From assembly GCA_030536995.1 (NCBI GenBank), contig JAUNOY010000002.1, forward strand, positions 124,001-188,000: a stretch of 64,000 nt of DNA, read 5' to 3'. The position numbers and the translations under genes are program-made. The notes under the pieces are model-generated. The model was given only the letters and a program-made list of their open reading frames with translations. It did not search any database and was not told where the DNA came from. This document shows, one piece after another, positions 3,947-28,452 of the stretch (its first letter is position 1; each line of letters opens with the position of its first letter). The stretch comes from Eubacteriales bacterium. Its GTDB lineage: Bacteria; Bacillota; Clostridia; Lachnospirales; Lachnospiraceae.

Positions 3947-3965
3947 CTTACATATAAAAAGAAAT

Positions 3966-4100
3966 TTCTTCGGGGTTGGGTGACCGGGGCTGAGTATCAG
4001 AATCGGAATTCCCTACCGGCGGTTACAGTCCGCGACCCGCTTCGGCGGTTGATCTGGTGAAATTCCGGAACCGACAGTAAAGTCTGGATGAGAGAAGAAC
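3966..4100 (+). ncRNA. FMN riboswitch (RFN element)
   Basis: Recognisable RFN conserved blocks occur in order: CTTCGGGGTTGGGTG, CCTACCGGCGGTTACAGTCC, GCGACCCGC, GATCTGGTGAAATTCCGG, ACCGACAGTAAAGTCTGGAT and AGAGAAG. It is followed by a terminator hairpin and the riboflavin transporter gene. FMN binding is expected to cause premature termination and so shut down riboflavin uptake. Confidence 0.96.
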
Positions 4101-4129
4101 ACGCAATAAGATTCATACGTGCTCAATGT

Positions 4130-22433: not shown

Positions 22434-22568
22434 ATTCATACTAAAATAATGATAGAAATACAAATAAAATGTGATAAATATATAATGTTACAGAAATACT
22501 CCTGCATTATAATGTGCAATTTGTAAAAAGCAGGGGCATTTCTGAGCGGATTTCCGGGAGGGATGATT

Positions 22569-24389
22569 ATGGCAAACAGTTATTATGAGAAAATGGCGAG
22601 AATCAATCTTACAACAGGTGAGATTAAGGTTGAAAAACTGGACATGGAGCTTGCGAAGAAATTTATCGGAGGTCGTGGTCTGGGAACGAAGATGCTGTAC
22701 GATGAAGGTGTGGCAACGGTAGACCCGTTATCAGCAGACAATAAACTGATTTATATTACAGGACCGATGACAGGTACAACAAGTCCGTCCTCAGGACGTT
22801 ATATGGTTTGTACCAAGTCTCCTCTTACAGGTATGATTGCCTGCTCAAACTCTGGTGGTATCTGGGGTGCGAAGCTTAAATATGCAGGCTGGGATGCCCT
22901 CATCGTAGAAGGAGAAGCTCCTGAGTGGACTTACATTAATATCGAGGATGATAAGATTGAGCTTTTGAATGCAGAGCAGTACCTTGGCATGATGTCCGAG
23001 GCTCTTGATGAGGAACTGAAAAAAGTTCACGGAGATAAGGCTTCTGTATTAAGCATTGGTGTTGCAGGAGAGAAACAGGTTCTTCTTGCGGCGATTATGA
23101 ATGACAAGGACCGTGCAGCAGGACGAAGCGGCGTAGGCGCTGTCATGGGAAGCAAGAAGCTGAAAGCTATCGTTGTGAAACCGTCCAGAAGCAATCTGGA
23201 AGACATTATTTACGATATGGATGCTCTGAAAGCAGCGAATAAAGAATGCCTCTCAATCCTGAGAGCAAACGGCGTTACAGGAGAAGGTCTCCGTGCTTAC
23301 GGTACAGCTGTTCTTGTAAATATCATCAACAATACAGGCTCTTTCCCGACAAAGAACTGGCAGGAATCCTATTATGAAAAAGCAGACGATACCTCAGGCG
23401 AGACTCTTGCGGATACATATCTGGTAAAAGCAGGCGCATGTCACCGCTGTCCGATTGCCTGCGGACGTATCGTTAATGTAAACGGCAAGGTTGTGGGAGG
23501 ACCGGAGTATGAGCCACTGTGGGCATACGGCGGAAACTGTGACAATAACGACCTCAATGCTATTGACGAAGCGAATATGTGGTGTAATGAGTACGGTCTG
23601 GATGCGATTTCCACTCCATGTACCATTGCGGCAGCTATGGAATTATATGATAAAGGTTATATTAAAGAAGAAGAGTGTGATGGCGTTCCGCTGAAATGGG
23701 GTTCTACAGAAGCCATTGTTGAGTGGACGAAACGCATGGGTAATCCGGAATCTCCTCTTGCATGGCTGATGAGCTCCGGTTCTGCACGGCTCTGCGAGCA
23801 CTACGGACATCCGGAAATTTCCATGAGCGTAAAGAAACAGGAAATGCCGGCATACGATGCACGTGGTATTCAGGGTATCGGTATTACTTATGCAACTTCC
23901 AACCGCGGCGGCTGCCATGTTCGCGGATATATGATAAGCCCTGAGGTTCTTGGACTTCCGGAACAGCTTGACAGAACATCAATTGACGATAAGGCTACCT
24001 GGGCAAAAATTTTCCAGGATCTCACAGCAGTCATTGACTCTATGGGCAACTGTCTGTTTACTTCCTTTGCTCTTGGCGCACCGCAGTACGCAGCGCTTCT
24101 TAATGCGGCAACAGGTACAGAATACACACCGGAAGAGCTTCTTGTAGTCGGCGAGAGAATTTATAACATTGAGCGTATGTTTAATAAAGCTGCAGGAATG
24201 AAGCCTGAGGATGACAGACTTCCGAAACGTCTTACAGAAGAACCGATTGTAAACGGACCTTCCAAGGGACAGGTTTCCCAGATTAAGATTACGCTTCCGC
24301 AGTATTATGAAGCCCGCGGCTGGGTAGATGCTTTCCCGACAGATGAGACATTAAAGAGACTGGGACTTGACGAATGCGTTGGTAAATAA
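22569..24389 (+). CDS. aor: Aldehyde:ferredoxin oxidoreductase (tungsten-dependent family)
   Basis: 606-residue AOR-family enzyme binding a bis-pterin W (or Mo) cofactor and one [4Fe-4S] cluster. Cluster ligands are CHRCPIAC at about residues 297-304, plus a late Cys in DSMGNC. The N-terminal domain-1 sequence GGRGLGTKMLYDE is typical. The reaction is reversible oxidation of aldehydes to carboxylates with ferredoxin, and acetogens can use it to interconvert acids and aldehydes. ATG 22569 has GGGAGG at a good distance; ATG 22563 is too close to it. It is followed by moaD and a moeB-like gene. The region upstream carries TTTCGYACAA repeats. Confidence 0.95.
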   Translation: MANSYYEKMARINLTTGEIKVEKLDMELAKKFIGGRGLGTKMLYDEGVATVDPLSADNKLIYITGPMTGTTSPSSGRYMVCTKSPLTGMIACSNSGGIWGAKLKYAGWDALIVEGEAPEWTYINIEDDKIELLNAEQYLGMMSEALDEELKKVHGDKASVLSIGVAGEKQVLLAAIMNDKDRAAGRSGVGAVMGSKKLKAIVVKPSRSNLEDIIYDMDALKAANKECLSILRANGVTGEGLRAYGTAVLVNIINNTGSFPTKNWQESYYEKADDTSGETLADTYLVKAGACHRCPIACGRIVNVNGKVVGGPEYEPLWAYGGNCDNNDLNAIDEANMWCNEYGLDAISTPCTIAAAMELYDKGYIKEEECDGVPLKWGSTEAIVEWTKRMGNPESPLAWLMSSGSARLCEHYGHPEISMSVKKQEMPAYDARGIQGIGITYATSNRGGCHVRGYMISPEVLGLPEQLDRTSIDDKATWAKIFQDLTAVIDSMGNCLFTSFALGAPQYAALLNAATGTEYTPEELLVVGERIYNIERMFNKAAGMKPEDDRLPKRLTEEPIVNGPSKGQVSQIKITLPQYYEARGWVDAFPTDETLKRLGLDECVGK

Positions 24390-24401: not shown

Positions 24402-24629
24402 ATGATTGAGGTACGTTTGTTTGCGACCTTGAGAAAAGACAGGGGAAAGATTTTATATCTTTCCTCTGCTGATTTTCATACAGGTTCAGAGATTCTGGCG
24501 CATCTTCGGATTTCGGAGGAGGATGTGGCGATTTTTCTTATTAACGGTTTCCATTCGAAACCTGATACAGAGGTGAAAGCAGGGGGATGTCCTTGCTGTT
24601 TTTCCTCCGGTGGGAGGCGGCTGATATGA
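24402..24629 (+). pseudogene. MoaD/ThiS-family sulfur carrier, frameshifted in a G run
   Basis: Ubiquitin-like small subunit of molybdopterin synthase. As sequenced, the frame ends CPCCFSSGGRRLI and lacks the obligatory C-terminal Gly-Gly. Removing one G from the five-G run at 24582-24586 gives AGDVLAVFPPVGGG and a stop at 24622-24624, the expected MoaD ending, one base before the next gene's ATG at 24626. The reading frame is therefore one base away from intact. Possibilities are a sequencing error, a true mutation, phase variation, or ribosomal slippage. The rest (EVRLFATLRKDRGK, FLINGFHS) is well conserved. Confidence 0.85.
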
Positions 24630-25297
24630 GATACAGCAGAAATATGGGAGCGATTACGCCAAAAGAGCAGGAGAGATTAAAGAACAGCCGTGTCCTAATT
24701 GTCGGCTGCGGCGGTCTTGGAGGGAATCTTGTAATGTATCTTGCGAGAATCGGCGTTGGCCATATCGCAGTTGCAGACCCGGATGTTTTTGAGGAATCGA
24801 ATCTAAACAGACAGATGTTTGCAACAGAACTGACTCTTGGGCAAAAGAAAGTCAGGGCAGCGGCAGAGGCTGTCAGAAGCATAAATCCGGAAGTGGAAAT
24901 TACCTGTTACGAAGAAGCTTTTACAGTGGAAAAGGGGCTGGAATGGGGAAAAAATCAGGATTTGCTCATTGACGCGGTGGATAACATAGCTGCGCGCAGA
25001 GATATGGCAAGAGTCTGCGAAGCCTTAAAAATTCCAATGATTTACGGCGCTGTCCGAGGCTGGAATTTGCAGGTCAGTGTCTTTTCTCCCCAAAAGGCTG
25101 TGCAGAAATTACAGCTTCTTTATCCGAAAGACACGCTCCCGGAAGATAAGGCAAGTCTGTCCTTTGTGGTGTCTGCCTGTGCCTCCATCCAGATCGCAGA
25201 AGCAGTAAAACACCTTCTGAATAAAGAAAGTGAGCTGAATGGTCAGCTCTTATTTGCGGATTTATTAAATGGGGAGTGGGAGACACTTCCGTTGTAA
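24626..25297 (+). CDS. MoeB/ThiF/HesA-family adenylyltransferase
   Basis: 223-residue E1-like enzyme expected to adenylate the C-terminal glycine of the adjacent MoaD protein before sulfur transfer. It has the ATP motif VGCGGLGGNL (about residues 26-35), the Arg in ESNLNRQMF and Asp in DAVDN. I do not see the paired CxxC zinc motifs of E. coli MoeB, and it is slightly short, as in HesA-like clostridial members. The ATG 24626 start touches the restored moaD stop, and the longer frame from 24587 is an overlap artefact. Confidence 0.88.
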   Translation: MRYSRNMGAITPKEQERLKNSRVLIVGCGGLGGNLVMYLARIGVGHIAVADPDVFEESNLNRQMFATELTLGQKKVRAAAEAVRSINPEVEITCYEEAFTVEKGLEWGKNQDLLIDAVDNIAARRDMARVCEALKIPMIYGAVRGWNLQVSVFSPQKAVQKLQLLYPKDTLPEDKASLSFVVSACASIQIAEAVKHLLNKESELNGQLLFADLLNGEWETLPL

Positions 25298-25298
25298 A

Positions 25299-25347
25299 GA
25301 AATCCCCCTGACCGACTGTTGATGAAGACGGACAGGGGGATTTTTTA
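25299..25347. terminator. Bidirectional terminator between moeB-like and tupC
   Basis: AAATCCCCCTG pairs with CAGGGGGATTT, with T-rich flanks on both strands, between convergent genes. Confidence 0.9.
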
Positions 25348-26022
25348 ATCAAGACTGTAAAAATCAAGGAACCTGCGAAGCTCCACAGTAGAAGGTTCAT
25401 TTAGGACTGAGGCTGTGCCGCCCTGCTCGATAAGATTTCCGTTTTCAAGATAGAGAACAGTATCGGAGAGGCGCAGCGCCTGTTTAAGACTGTGAGTGAT
25501 GAGCAGGACTGAGGCTTTCGTTCTGTGGGTATATTCACGAATGACCTGTTCTGCGCGCAGGGTATTATTCATATCTATGGCGGCTGTTGGCTCATCCAGA
25601 ATCAAAAGGGAATATTCTTTCATCATTAAGCGCGCCAGAGCCATTCGTGCAGTTTCTCCGCCTGACAGACTGGAGCCGTTTTTTTCTGCCAGAGCAGTCA
25701 GCTCGAAAGCGCGGATTAATTCTTCTGCTCTGGTTTCGTTGCCAGAGGAGTTTTTCTCTTTATTGAGAAGGATGTTTTTGCGCAGAGTCATGTGAAAGGC
25801 GTAGGGTTTCTGCGGAAGATAGCCGATATTTACGGAGGAAGACAAAGGTCTTGTGGCAGAATCCGCTTTTTCAATCCCTGCGAGTACCCTTGCAAAAGTG
25901 GATTTACCGGAACCATTGCTGCCTATGACTGCGTAAATGTGAGAAGGCTCAAAAGAGAACGCAGGAAAATTCAGTACAGTTCTTCCGTGATAGCTTTTTG
26001 TAAAAGGGGAAACGGTAATCAT
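25345..26022 (-). CDS. tupC: Tungstate-type ABC transporter ATPase TupC
   Basis: 225-residue ABC ATPase with Walker A GSNGSGKST (about residues 34-42), signature LSGGE (about 119) and Walker B LLILDEP. It energises the TupB permease, with whose gene it overlaps by 4 bases. Assignment to tungstate rather than molybdate rests on the TupA-like binding protein motifs and the neighbouring AOR and MoeA genes. Confidence 0.87.
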   Translation of the reverse strand: MITVSPFTKSYHGRTVLNFPAFSFEPSHIYAVIGSNGSGKSTFARVLAGIEKADSATRPLSSSVNIGYLPQKPYAFHMTLRKNILLNKEKNSSGNETRAEELIRAFELTALAEKNGSSLSGGETARMALARLMMKEYSLLILDEPTAAIDMNNTLRAEQVIREYTHRTKASVLLITHSLKQALRLSDTVLYLENGNLIEQGGTASVLNEPSTVELRRFLDFYSLD

Positions 26023-26702
26023 TTAAACCTCCTTTGCAGCAGGATTCCCAGAACATTGAGAATCAGGGAAATTCCAAGAAGAATATAACCCAGAGAGAGG
26101 GCAATAACGAAATTTCCCATATTTGTGTAATTCATAATCGCAGTTGTCATAACATTTGTTTTATATGCAATAGCGCCTCCTACCATGGAAATTGCGCCAA
26201 CCTCGGCGAAAGCCCGTCCAAGCCCGAAAAGATAAGTGGCAAGGAACTGATGGCGGCTTTCGTTGACGAGAAGGAAGAGGAGCTTCATTTTGCCAAGACG
26301 AAGTCCCTGGGTAGTTTCCCGTATACCCGGCGCTATGGTGGAAACATAGGTCTCCACATTTCCGATGATAAGTGGGGTAATGAGGATAATCTGGGCGATT
26401 ACCATACCCTGTACTGTATACAAAAGACGAAGATGCCGCAAAGGTCCGACTCCGCAGAATAGCAGATAGCAGATCAGACCGCAGACAACGGGCGGAAGGC
26501 TCATCATAGTACGGTTTATGGTAACAAGGATGTTTTTGCCCCGAAAAACACTGCTTCCCAGAAGTGTGCCCAAAGGAGCGCCCAGAAGCAGGGCAAAAAC
26601 GGAACTGGTAAGTCCCATTCGCAGAGTTACGGAGATAATATTCATCAATTCATCGTCTCCGGATAATAAAAGCTGTAAAGCCTGAATGAATGCAGTTTTC
26701 AT
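26019..26702 (-). CDS. tupB: Tungstate-type ABC transporter permease TupB
   Basis: 227-residue membrane permease with five to six hydrophobic helices and the cytoplasmic EAA-like loop (ETTQGLRLGKMKLLFLLVNE, about 129-148), which couples to the ATPase. The segment RAFAEVGAISMVGGAI is characteristic of TupB/ModB relatives. It lies between the permuted tupA gene and tupC. Confidence 0.88.
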   Translation of the reverse strand: MKTAFIQALQLLLSGDDELMNIISVTLRMGLTSSVFALLLGAPLGTLLGSSVFRGKNILVTINRTMMSLPPVVCGLICYLLFCGVGPLRHLRLLYTVQGMVIAQIILITPLIIGNVETYVSTIAPGIRETTQGLRLGKMKLLFLLVNESRHQFLATYLFGLGRAFAEVGAISMVGGAIAYKTNVMTTAIMNYTNMGNFVIALSLGYILLGISLILNVLGILLQRRFK

Positions 26703-26832: not shown

Positions 26833-27801
26833 TTATTCCATGACGCCGTTATTTGCCTGGAAGGTTAAGAAAGTAGCTTTGTCAGAAAGGATATAAGCTC
26901 CTGTTTCTTCCGCCATTGTAAGGCAAACGCCCATACCTGCGTTAGAGGAGGTATACCAGCTGTAATCCTTTACGCTTTCTGCTTCAGCAGTGATTCCCAG
27001 ATCTTCCGGCCACAGGGAAAGCTCTTTTGTATGAGTTCCGGAGTTGTCGCCGCGGGACACGAATGGGAATTCTCCTTCTGCGATAGCTGCGAAAGCATCT
27101 TTTACAGTAGCAGCATCTTTTGCTTTTGCAGGGTCAGCGGACGGTCCGCATAATACGAAGTAATTGTACATATAAGTGAGACGTTCAGTTTCCTGGCCGT
27201 CGAGAACACGGGCAAATCCTGCGTTTACGAATTCTTCCTCCTGAGATTTGGAGTGAACAAGAATCAGGTCTGCATTGCCGGACTGTGCGTTTGCAATGGC
27301 TTTACCGGTACCTGCGGAGAAAACTTCTACTTCGTAGCCGTATTTTTCTTCAAATTCAGGAAGAAGGTAGTTTAAAAGACCGGAATCGTTTACAGAGGTG
27401 GTAGTGGACATACGAATGGTTTTCGTCTCGTCTGTAGCTTCCGGAATTTCTGCTGTGGAAGAAGGACCGTCTTCTGTGAGATAGAAAAGATATTCACCGT
27501 AATCTTCGAAACCAAAGTTCTTGGTCAGTTCTTTTGCTTCGTCGCTGATCATCCAGTTAATAAGCGCGTCAGCGCCTGCCGTATTAAGTGCAACGTCTGT
27601 TACTTCTTTGCCGTCCGCATCAACGAAAGGTGCATCCGGGTTCACGGCAAGTAAGGAATAGTTATTGATCATGCTTTCATCTTCTTCATATAAGATGGTC
27701 AGATCTACACTCTTTGCCTCTTCCTCAGCGTATACAGGAAGCGCAGATGATGCCAGCATTGCGGCAGCCATGAATAAGCCAACTGTTTTGGGGTTTTTCA
27801 T
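26833..27801 (-). CDS. tupA: Tungstate-binding protein TupA, circularly permuted
   Basis: 322-residue secreted substrate-binding protein of the TupABC type. A Sec signal peptide (1-25, cleavage after VYA) has no lipobox Cys. Residues 32-108 (LTILYEEDE, YSLLAVNPDAP, ALINWMISDEAK) match what is normally the C-terminal end of TupA. A Ser/Thr/Glu/Pro linker (109-126) follows. Residues 127-320 (MSTTTSVNDSGLL, ADLILVHSK, SRGDNSGTHTKE, AYILSDKATFL) match the normal N-terminal two thirds. The protein ends NNGVME, just where LTILYEED would continue in the standard order. All oxyanion-binding motifs are retained, and tupB and tupC follow, so it is probably functional. Start ATG 27801, behind AAGGAGG. 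Confidence 0.88.
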   Translation of the reverse strand: MKNPKTVGLFMAAAMLASSALPVYAEEEAKSVDLTILYEEDESMINNYSLLAVNPDAPFVDADGKEVTDVALNTAGADALINWMISDEAKELTKNFGFEDYGEYLFYLTEDGPSSTAEIPEATDETKTIRMSTTTSVNDSGLLNYLLPEFEEKYGYEVEVFSAGTGKAIANAQSGNADLILVHSKSQEEEFVNAGFARVLDGQETERLTYMYNYFVLCGPSADPAKAKDAATVKDAFAAIAEGEFPFVSRGDNSGTHTKELSLWPEDLGITAEAESVKDYSWYTSSNAGMGVCLTMAEETGAYILSDKATFLTFQANNGVME

Positions 27802-28047: not shown

Positions 28048-28452
28048 ATGACAGAAAAAAAGTGTGTCCCATCGATGGATGAATGGCTGAGAGAAGCAAA
28101 AAAAGATAAAGATTTTCAAGAATGCGGAATGTATCTTTTTCATAATGGTGTGGTTCGCGGTACTGCGAAAGCAAAAGTACGGATGGGAGAGGAAAATACG
28201 CAGCCTGTGACAGGGATGGACTTTGCTTATGACAGGGATAAGGTTGAAAAAGCAGTGGAGGAAGCGCGCAGCTTACCGGGAATCCATTATGTCCGCGCTT
28301 GGCTTAACGAAGGGCATCTGGAGGTAGGAGACGATATTATGTTGATACTTATCGGCGGAGATATACGTCCCAGAGTAATAGAAGCTTTACAGATTCTGGT
28401 TGGAAACATAAAGAATCACTGTGTGAGAGAAACAGAAATATATATAGAATGA
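28048..28452 (+). CDS. MoaE-like molybdopterin synthase catalytic subunit
   Basis: 134-residue protein of the MoaE family, the large subunit of molybdopterin synthase that converts precursor Z to molybdopterin using MoaD thiocarboxylate. Visible family segments are YLFHNGVVRGTAK, FAYDRDKVEKAV and VGDDIMLILIGGDIRP. It completes a pterin-dithiolene assembly set with the moaD/moeB pair and two MoeA genes, although moaA and moaC are not in this window. GAGGAG precedes ATG 28048. Confidence 0.88.
   Translation: MTEKKCVPSMDEWLREAKKDKDFQECGMYLFHNGVVRGTAKAKVRMGEENTQPVTGMDFAYDRDKVEKAVEEARSLPGIHYVRAWLNEGHLEVGDDIMLILIGGDIRPRVIEALQILVGNIKNHCVRETEIYIE

Follow-up and report, generated by a model that had tools for sequence, protein, structure and literature searches.

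Sequence comparison supports a natural circular permutation of the tungstate-binding protein TupA

The gene at positions 26833..27801 (minus strand) of the window, by which we mean the whole 64,000-nucleotide stretch of DNA analysed here, probably encodes the extracellular binding protein of a TupABC tungstate importer. A single circular permutation of an ordinary TupA would have given rise to this protein. We give this reading a probability of about 0.9. That the protein is a circularly permuted TupA is supported by swapped matches to a profile of canonical TupA, by homologues with the same order, by the pocket residues and by the adjacency of tupB and tupC. The canonical segment order of TupA is not what we find: homology is present, but the segments are swapped.

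Results

The gene and its surroundings

The open reading frame begins with ATG and translates into 322 amino acids; its assignment to tupA follows from Pfam and NCBIfam matches. Directly upstream of the ATG, the coding strand reads ttaaggaggaaaag. Residues 1-32 (27706..27801, minus strand) are a signal peptide and a short spacer, in which neither the translation nor a lipobox pattern scan reveals a lipobox cysteine. Alignments and profile matches identify residues 33-108 (27478..27705, minus) as the segment that is C-terminal in canonical TupA and N-terminal here. Residues 109-126 (27424..27477, minus) fall outside both profile matches and, in the alignment, link the old C-terminus to the old N-terminus. 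The remaining residues, 127-322 (26836..27423, minus), are the canonical N-terminal part with the pocket residues, again by alignments and profile. Mapped by alignment, they contain the rest of lobe A, the central strand and most of lobe B.

Database models see mainly this last part. Pfam PBP_like_2 (1.5e-31) covers residues 127-315 of 322. The NCBIfam TupA model (NF041772, equivalog cut-off 400 bits) gives 148 bits, and the best of its two stretches spans residues 126-318 and profile positions 14-193 of 266. Two other permuted proteins also stay below the cut-off (130.2 and 156.6 bits), as do four canonical TupA relatives (193.9-242.7 bits).

A tupB-like permease gene (26019..26702, minus; NCBIfam ABC_perm1, 170 bits, cut-off 100) and a gene for a tupC-like ATPase of 225 aa (25345..26022, minus; Pfam ABC_tran, 1.8e-22) follow tupA. 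Their scores against the dedicated NCBIfam models are 131.5 bits for TupB (below the cut-off of 320) and 86.4 bits for TupC (below the cut-off of 400, with another model matching best). The ATPase has no TOBE family among its Pfam matches and is shorter than the 319-position NCBIfam TupC model.

Genes related to tungsten and its cofactor lie on both sides. On the plus strand we find a member of the aldehyde ferredoxin oxidoreductase family, likely a tungsten enzyme (22563..24389; Pfam AFOR_C 2.1e-139, AFOR_N 3.4e-75), and a MoeB/ThiF-family adenylyltransferase (24587..25297; Pfam ThiF 1.1e-57). Divergent from tupA is a MoaE-like protein (28048..28452, plus; Pfam MoaE 7.2e-08, 33 bits, cut-off 23.4), which has no NCBIfam match. 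Scanning the whole window at the Rfam gathering threshold yields no molybdenum/tungsten cofactor riboswitch upstream of tupA. The sole match at this threshold is an FMN riboswitch at 3962-4103 (plus strand, 97.1 bits).

Two segments of TupA in swapped order

Canonical TupA of known structure (D. alaskensis 5my5, G. sulfurreducens 3lr1 and V. parahaemolyticus 3muq) is homologous to the window protein over both segments and shares its pocket residues. In phmmer comparisons, residues 127-315 of window TupA align with residues 5-179 of 3muq, and residues 31-81 align with residues 181-232, which come directly after 5-179 in the crystal chain. The order is swapped in the same way for 3lr1 and 5my5. 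The second pieces are individually weak, with independent E-values of 0.21, 8.7 and 100 among these three structures, and for 3kn3 a single stretch is listed. For this reason we built a profile of canonical TupA from 88 canonical rows.

Against this profile, residues 29-108 match columns 172-240 (44.5 bits) and residues 131-317 match columns 2-174 (219.4 bits), with an overlap of 3 columns. The segments occupy different columns, and hence the protein is a permutation; a repeat is ruled out. The original prediction had placed the C-terminal segment of TupA ahead of the rest and behind the signal peptide, just as the profile does. Its boundaries (32-108, linker 109-126, 127-320) are correct to within a few residues. 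It had also conceded that two segments aligning to one and the same region would overturn it, and the separate alignments to distinct regions exclude this.

The match of the shorter segment exceeds what its composition would give. Alone, residues 31-126 score 46.2 bits, and the best of 2000 shuffles reaches 7.3 bits (1503 of them gave a reported match). When the window segments are rearranged into canonical order, they produce one continuous match over columns 2-240 with 272.5 bits. The canonical protein of locus L013, held out of the profile, also matches in one piece (313 bits). Swapped matches occur in all 12 permuted loci scanned, one of which, L005, is incomplete; in locus L009 the first stretch begins at column 159. 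Besides the swapped segments, the permuted protein differs from canonical TupA in having ends that map to lobe B, an added linker and three short extra stretches. These stretches, at about residues 57-64, 198-204 and 275-281 of window TupA, are missing in four aligned canonical rows.

Pocket residues, selection and function

The pocket of D. alaskensis TupA consists of Thr9-11, Ser12, His59, Arg118, Thr124 and Asp170, and Arg118 was tested by mutation, as described in PMC5517513. The phmmer alignment to the solved structures gives T133-T135, S136, H183, R250, T256 and D307 as the window equivalents. All eight are identical in the 16 full-length, uninterrupted permuted copies (16/16, with the copies L005 and L131 left out), in line with the original prediction that the anion-binding motifs are kept. 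Canonical rows retain the same positions at rates from 94/105 (T133) up to 105/105 (H183, R250 and D307).

The adjacency of tupB and tupC, predicted for the window, extends to 16 of the 18 permuted copies overall. One exception is cut by a contig end. The other is an orphan second copy in genome G546 (locus L106), where tupBC are absent within its 12.5 kb. Canonical relatives (L006-L008 and L114-L116) likewise carry tupB and tupC beside tupA.

Selection appears to preserve the gene. In three pairs among the loci L010-L012, dN/dS is about 0.04-0.05 and dN is well below dS in both segments, which shows that the permuted form is being maintained in these loci. For the window gene compared with that of L009, dN is 0.125 and dS is 2.1, a value at which synonymous change is saturated. 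The low dN/dS among close relatives agrees with the earlier expectation of a probably working protein.

The permuted TupABC system would bind and transport tungstate. Permuted TupA would close on tungstate between its lobes and dock on a pair of TupB permeases. Tungsten from the importer may then reach enzymes, among them the aldehyde ferredoxin oxidoreductase encoded nearby.

Alternatively, the permuted protein may bind another oxyanion, for example molybdate, or it may be a sensor instead of a part of a tungstate importer. The scores below the equivalog cut-offs for TupA, TupB and TupC and the orphan copy in G546 point this way. However, the named TupA pocket residues are kept and tupBC adjoin nearly every copy. 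Furthermore, several permuted loci have tungsten-enzyme or cofactor genes nearby: aldehyde ferredoxin oxidoreductase (window, L009 and L110), MoeB (window, L009, L110 and L111), MoaE (window, L109 and L111) and MoeA (L105, L107, L108 and L110). We therefore consider another ligand or a sensor role improbable, although it is the strongest competitor of the importer reading.

A MoeA-like protein with a C-terminal PBP_like domain is encoded beside the permuted tup genes in three loci (L105, 9191-11122; L107, 8309-10231; L108, 1458-3377).

Lobe order and the position of the tether

In D. alaskensis TupA, lobe A comprises residues 2-76 and 201-251, the central strand 77-89 and lobe B 91-200 (PMC5517513). 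When mapped by hand from the phmmer alignment, the cut falls between D. alaskensis residues ~180 and ~186, inside lobe B. Window Tyr48 corresponds to Tyr201, where the chain enters lobe A, about 15 residues after the cut. The same hand mapping gives the window protein the order lobe B (33-47), lobe A (48 to ~207, linker included), central strand and lobe B (~222-322). Hence the order is B-A-B in place of A-B-A; lobe A is continuous and lobe B is split. The protein would retain the usual two-lobed fold in this altered order. The original prediction had set the cut near a hinge crossing, which is approximately right, but by alignment mapping the new ends lie some 15 residues earlier, within lobe B.

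The moved segment might complete the lobes of a partner molecule instead of its own chain, forming a domain-swapped dimer. The sequence is compatible with such an arrangement. Against it, the 18-residue linker should suffice to close the ring, and D. alaskensis TupA is described as monomeric (PMC5517513). We regard the dimer as quite unlikely.

In a canonical lipoprotein, the tether would lead into lobe A a few residues ahead of TTTS, a motif located within about ten residues of where the fold begins. By our mapping, the tether of the permuted protein instead joins lobe B, and about 100 residues separate it from this motif. The permutation would thereby increase the distance between the N-terminal tether and the pocket motif TTTS. 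For TpMglB-2, a permuted sugar-binding protein, the authors propose that a tether close to the pocket causes strain, which the permutation may relieve (PMC4990184). As a hypothesis, relief of tether strain would fit permuted TupA as well.

Lipoboxes were counted with a rough pattern made for this analysis. It matches 13/18 permuted and 64/105 canonical proteins, and inspection by eye adds three permuted proteins (L003, L004 and L106) with a cysteine at about the expected position. No lipobox cysteine is present in the window protein, and its same-genus relative L009 has a cysteine in a setting outside the pattern, whereas 13 of the 16 other permuted copies match. Since the genus of the window lacks a recognisable lipobox, tether relief is not the whole reason for the permutation there. 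The new C-terminus, which is 15 residues past pocket residue D307, also counts against the tether idea.

Relationships of the permuted form

Permuted proteins group together in every tree. A TupA tree of 12 permuted and 89 canonical proteins separates the permuted forms from the others by a branch with support 100, and so does a larger tree of 16 permuted and 45 of 104 canonical proteins (100/100). In trees for each part (16 and 103 rows), the permuted forms group with support 99 for the moved segment alone, which provides 72 columns only, and 100 for the rest alone. Several independent origins are unsupported. The TupA trees have no outgroup, and we take the canonical order as probably ancestral since it is the more widely spread of the two.

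The eight canonical rows nearest to the moved segment are also the eight nearest to the rest (L050, L051, L052, L054, L061, L076, L077 and L134); this grouping has support 91 in the tree of the moved segment and 99 in that of the rest. The closest of all, L076 and L077, belong to a different class within the phylum (97/92 in the larger tree). Among the nearest sets of the smaller tree, only the one with seven canonical rows is well supported.

These results bear on the idea that the N-terminal segment stems from a non-TupA gene and merely resembles the C-terminus of TupA, as proposed for part of TpMglB-2. It is indeed the less conserved part, and its tree is short. The nearest canonical rows by plain identity also differ in part (L077, L125 and L079 for the moved segment; L076, L050 and L077 for the rest). 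Yet the shared nearest rows in both trees speak against a foreign donor, and the score of the segment against the TupA profile is far above the shuffle maximum. Non-TupA relatives were sought in Pfam, NCBIfam and PDB sequences with the whole protein as query. A foreign origin is very unlikely, and we retain an origin of both segments from TupA.

The permease follows the same pattern. In a tree of 11 TupB proteins from permuted loci and 73 from canonical loci, the TupB proteins of permuted loci stand together with support 100. Hence the binding protein and the permease appear to have travelled together.

Distribution of the permuted order

With duplicates removed, the permuted order is present in 18 gene copies from 17 genomes. 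A copy was scored as permuted when the moved segment precedes the rest, and the 18 include the copy cut by a contig end (L005) and a copy with one in-frame stop (L131). The carriers are 14 genomes of four families (f1, f17, f26 and f99) in the class of the window and three named Oscillospiraceae contigs (L010-L012). Genome G546 has two copies. L009 is a fourth named contig with a permuted gene, but its protein is identical to that of G575 and was counted once.

Permuted copies are scattered among canonical ones in samples that overlap one another. In the family of the window, 7 of 200 genomes have a match, 4 permuted and 3 canonical. The nearest-relative sample (61 genomes) has 6 with a match and 2 permuted. 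In the order (392 genomes, 33 with a match) and in the class (391 genomes, 47 with a match), usually with five candidates per genome scored, 4 are permuted each time. Three further families were sampled. In that of G621, 26 of 148 genomes have a match and 4 are permuted; in that of G477, 2 of 58 have a match and 1 is permuted; in that of G932, 5 of 13 have a match and 3 are permuted. Of these last three, G1481 carries a canonical copy as well. Among named contigs, the scan gives 5 loci, 4 permuted and 1 canonical.

Beyond the class we find no permuted copy among the matches listed for the phylum sample (398 genomes, 187 with a match, usually five candidates per genome), where only the genome of the window has a match that reaches into the moved segment. 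Every full-length permuted match seen is stronger than the matches outside that list, which have E > 4e-42; among these, a permuted gene truncated at the end of its contig could go unnoticed.

One might suspect a chimera of the assembly or a single broken gene, given a draft genome of 40 contigs and named carriers that are metagenome-assembled. This is contradicted by an order common to 17 genomes, by the colinearity of the first seven homologues found with window TupA (65-76% identity) and by purifying selection among L010-L012.

Permuted carriers are scattered over several families that also contain canonical ones, a pattern suggestive of transfer or of many losses. A fuller scenario is that one permutation founded a co-adapted importer lineage, consisting of permuted TupA and its own clade of TupB, which spread between families and in which the tether moved off the TTTS lobe and freed the pocket. 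We offer it tentatively, at a little short of even odds.

Two of the copies are unusual in themselves. The second permuted tupA of G546 (L106, 5496-6533, minus strand) is more diverged, with 60% identity to the window protein. In genome G1483, the in-frame stop of the permuted copy (L131, 488-1624) reflects either a sequencing error or decay.

Discussion

The nearest known parallel is TpMglB-2 (Tp0684) of Treponema pallidum, a "Type Ic" protein described as a natural circular permutant of a sugar-binding protein for ABC import that still binds its ligand (PMC4990184). According to the same source, Type Ic proteins belong mostly to treponemes and Gram-positive bacteria. TpMglB-2 and permuted TupA have in common that a binding protein of ABC import is naturally permuted. 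Otherwise they differ: TpMglB-2 has the Type I/cluster B sugar-binding fold with a fourth hinge crossing, and its cut site is another one, with strands of its N-lobe moved to the C-terminus (PMC4990184). Its permuted part is poorly conserved in sequence and may stem from another gene (PMC4990184), whereas that of TupA is recognisably TupA. Window TupA shows no match to a sugar-binding family (its families are PBP_like_2 and SBP_bac_11 in Pfam and TupA in NCBIfam) and is thus not a Type Ic protein.

In the open-access (PMC) literature, no permuted TupA appears among the matches listed, and TpMglB-2 is the one natural circular permutant among transport binding proteins that we found. Measured against that literature, permuted TupA would be the second. 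If the scenario of a co-adapted importer lineage is true, no oxyanion-binding protein of the superfamily would have been known as a natural circular permutant before it. That the general fold can tolerate moved ends is known from engineered circularly permuted periplasmic binding proteins. In contrast to these laboratory-made proteins, permuted TupA is natural and conserved.

The permutation has a practical side. Because the Pfam match is limited to residues 127-315 of 322 and the NCBIfam score is far under its cut-off, permuted proteins can look truncated or odd. In surveys of tungsten use, permuted TupA can pass for a truncated or odd TupA, which is a gap in annotation. Solved structures, a simple binding assay and close canonical relatives make it testable why the permutation persists, be it through tether position, permease docking or folding.

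Circular permutations are usually explained by tandem duplication. For TupA the simplest route would be a tandem duplication, a fusion and then the loss of both outer ends. This would place the old C-terminal segment after the signal peptide, join the old ends by the linker of ~18 residues and leave the new ends in a loop of lobe B. A fused double-TupA intermediate was not seen in the second set of loci, where a single B match is listed per row. Adjacent pairs of tupA-like genes are present in canonical relatives (L053, L086, L104 and L123), and such pairs are possible raw material for a permutation.
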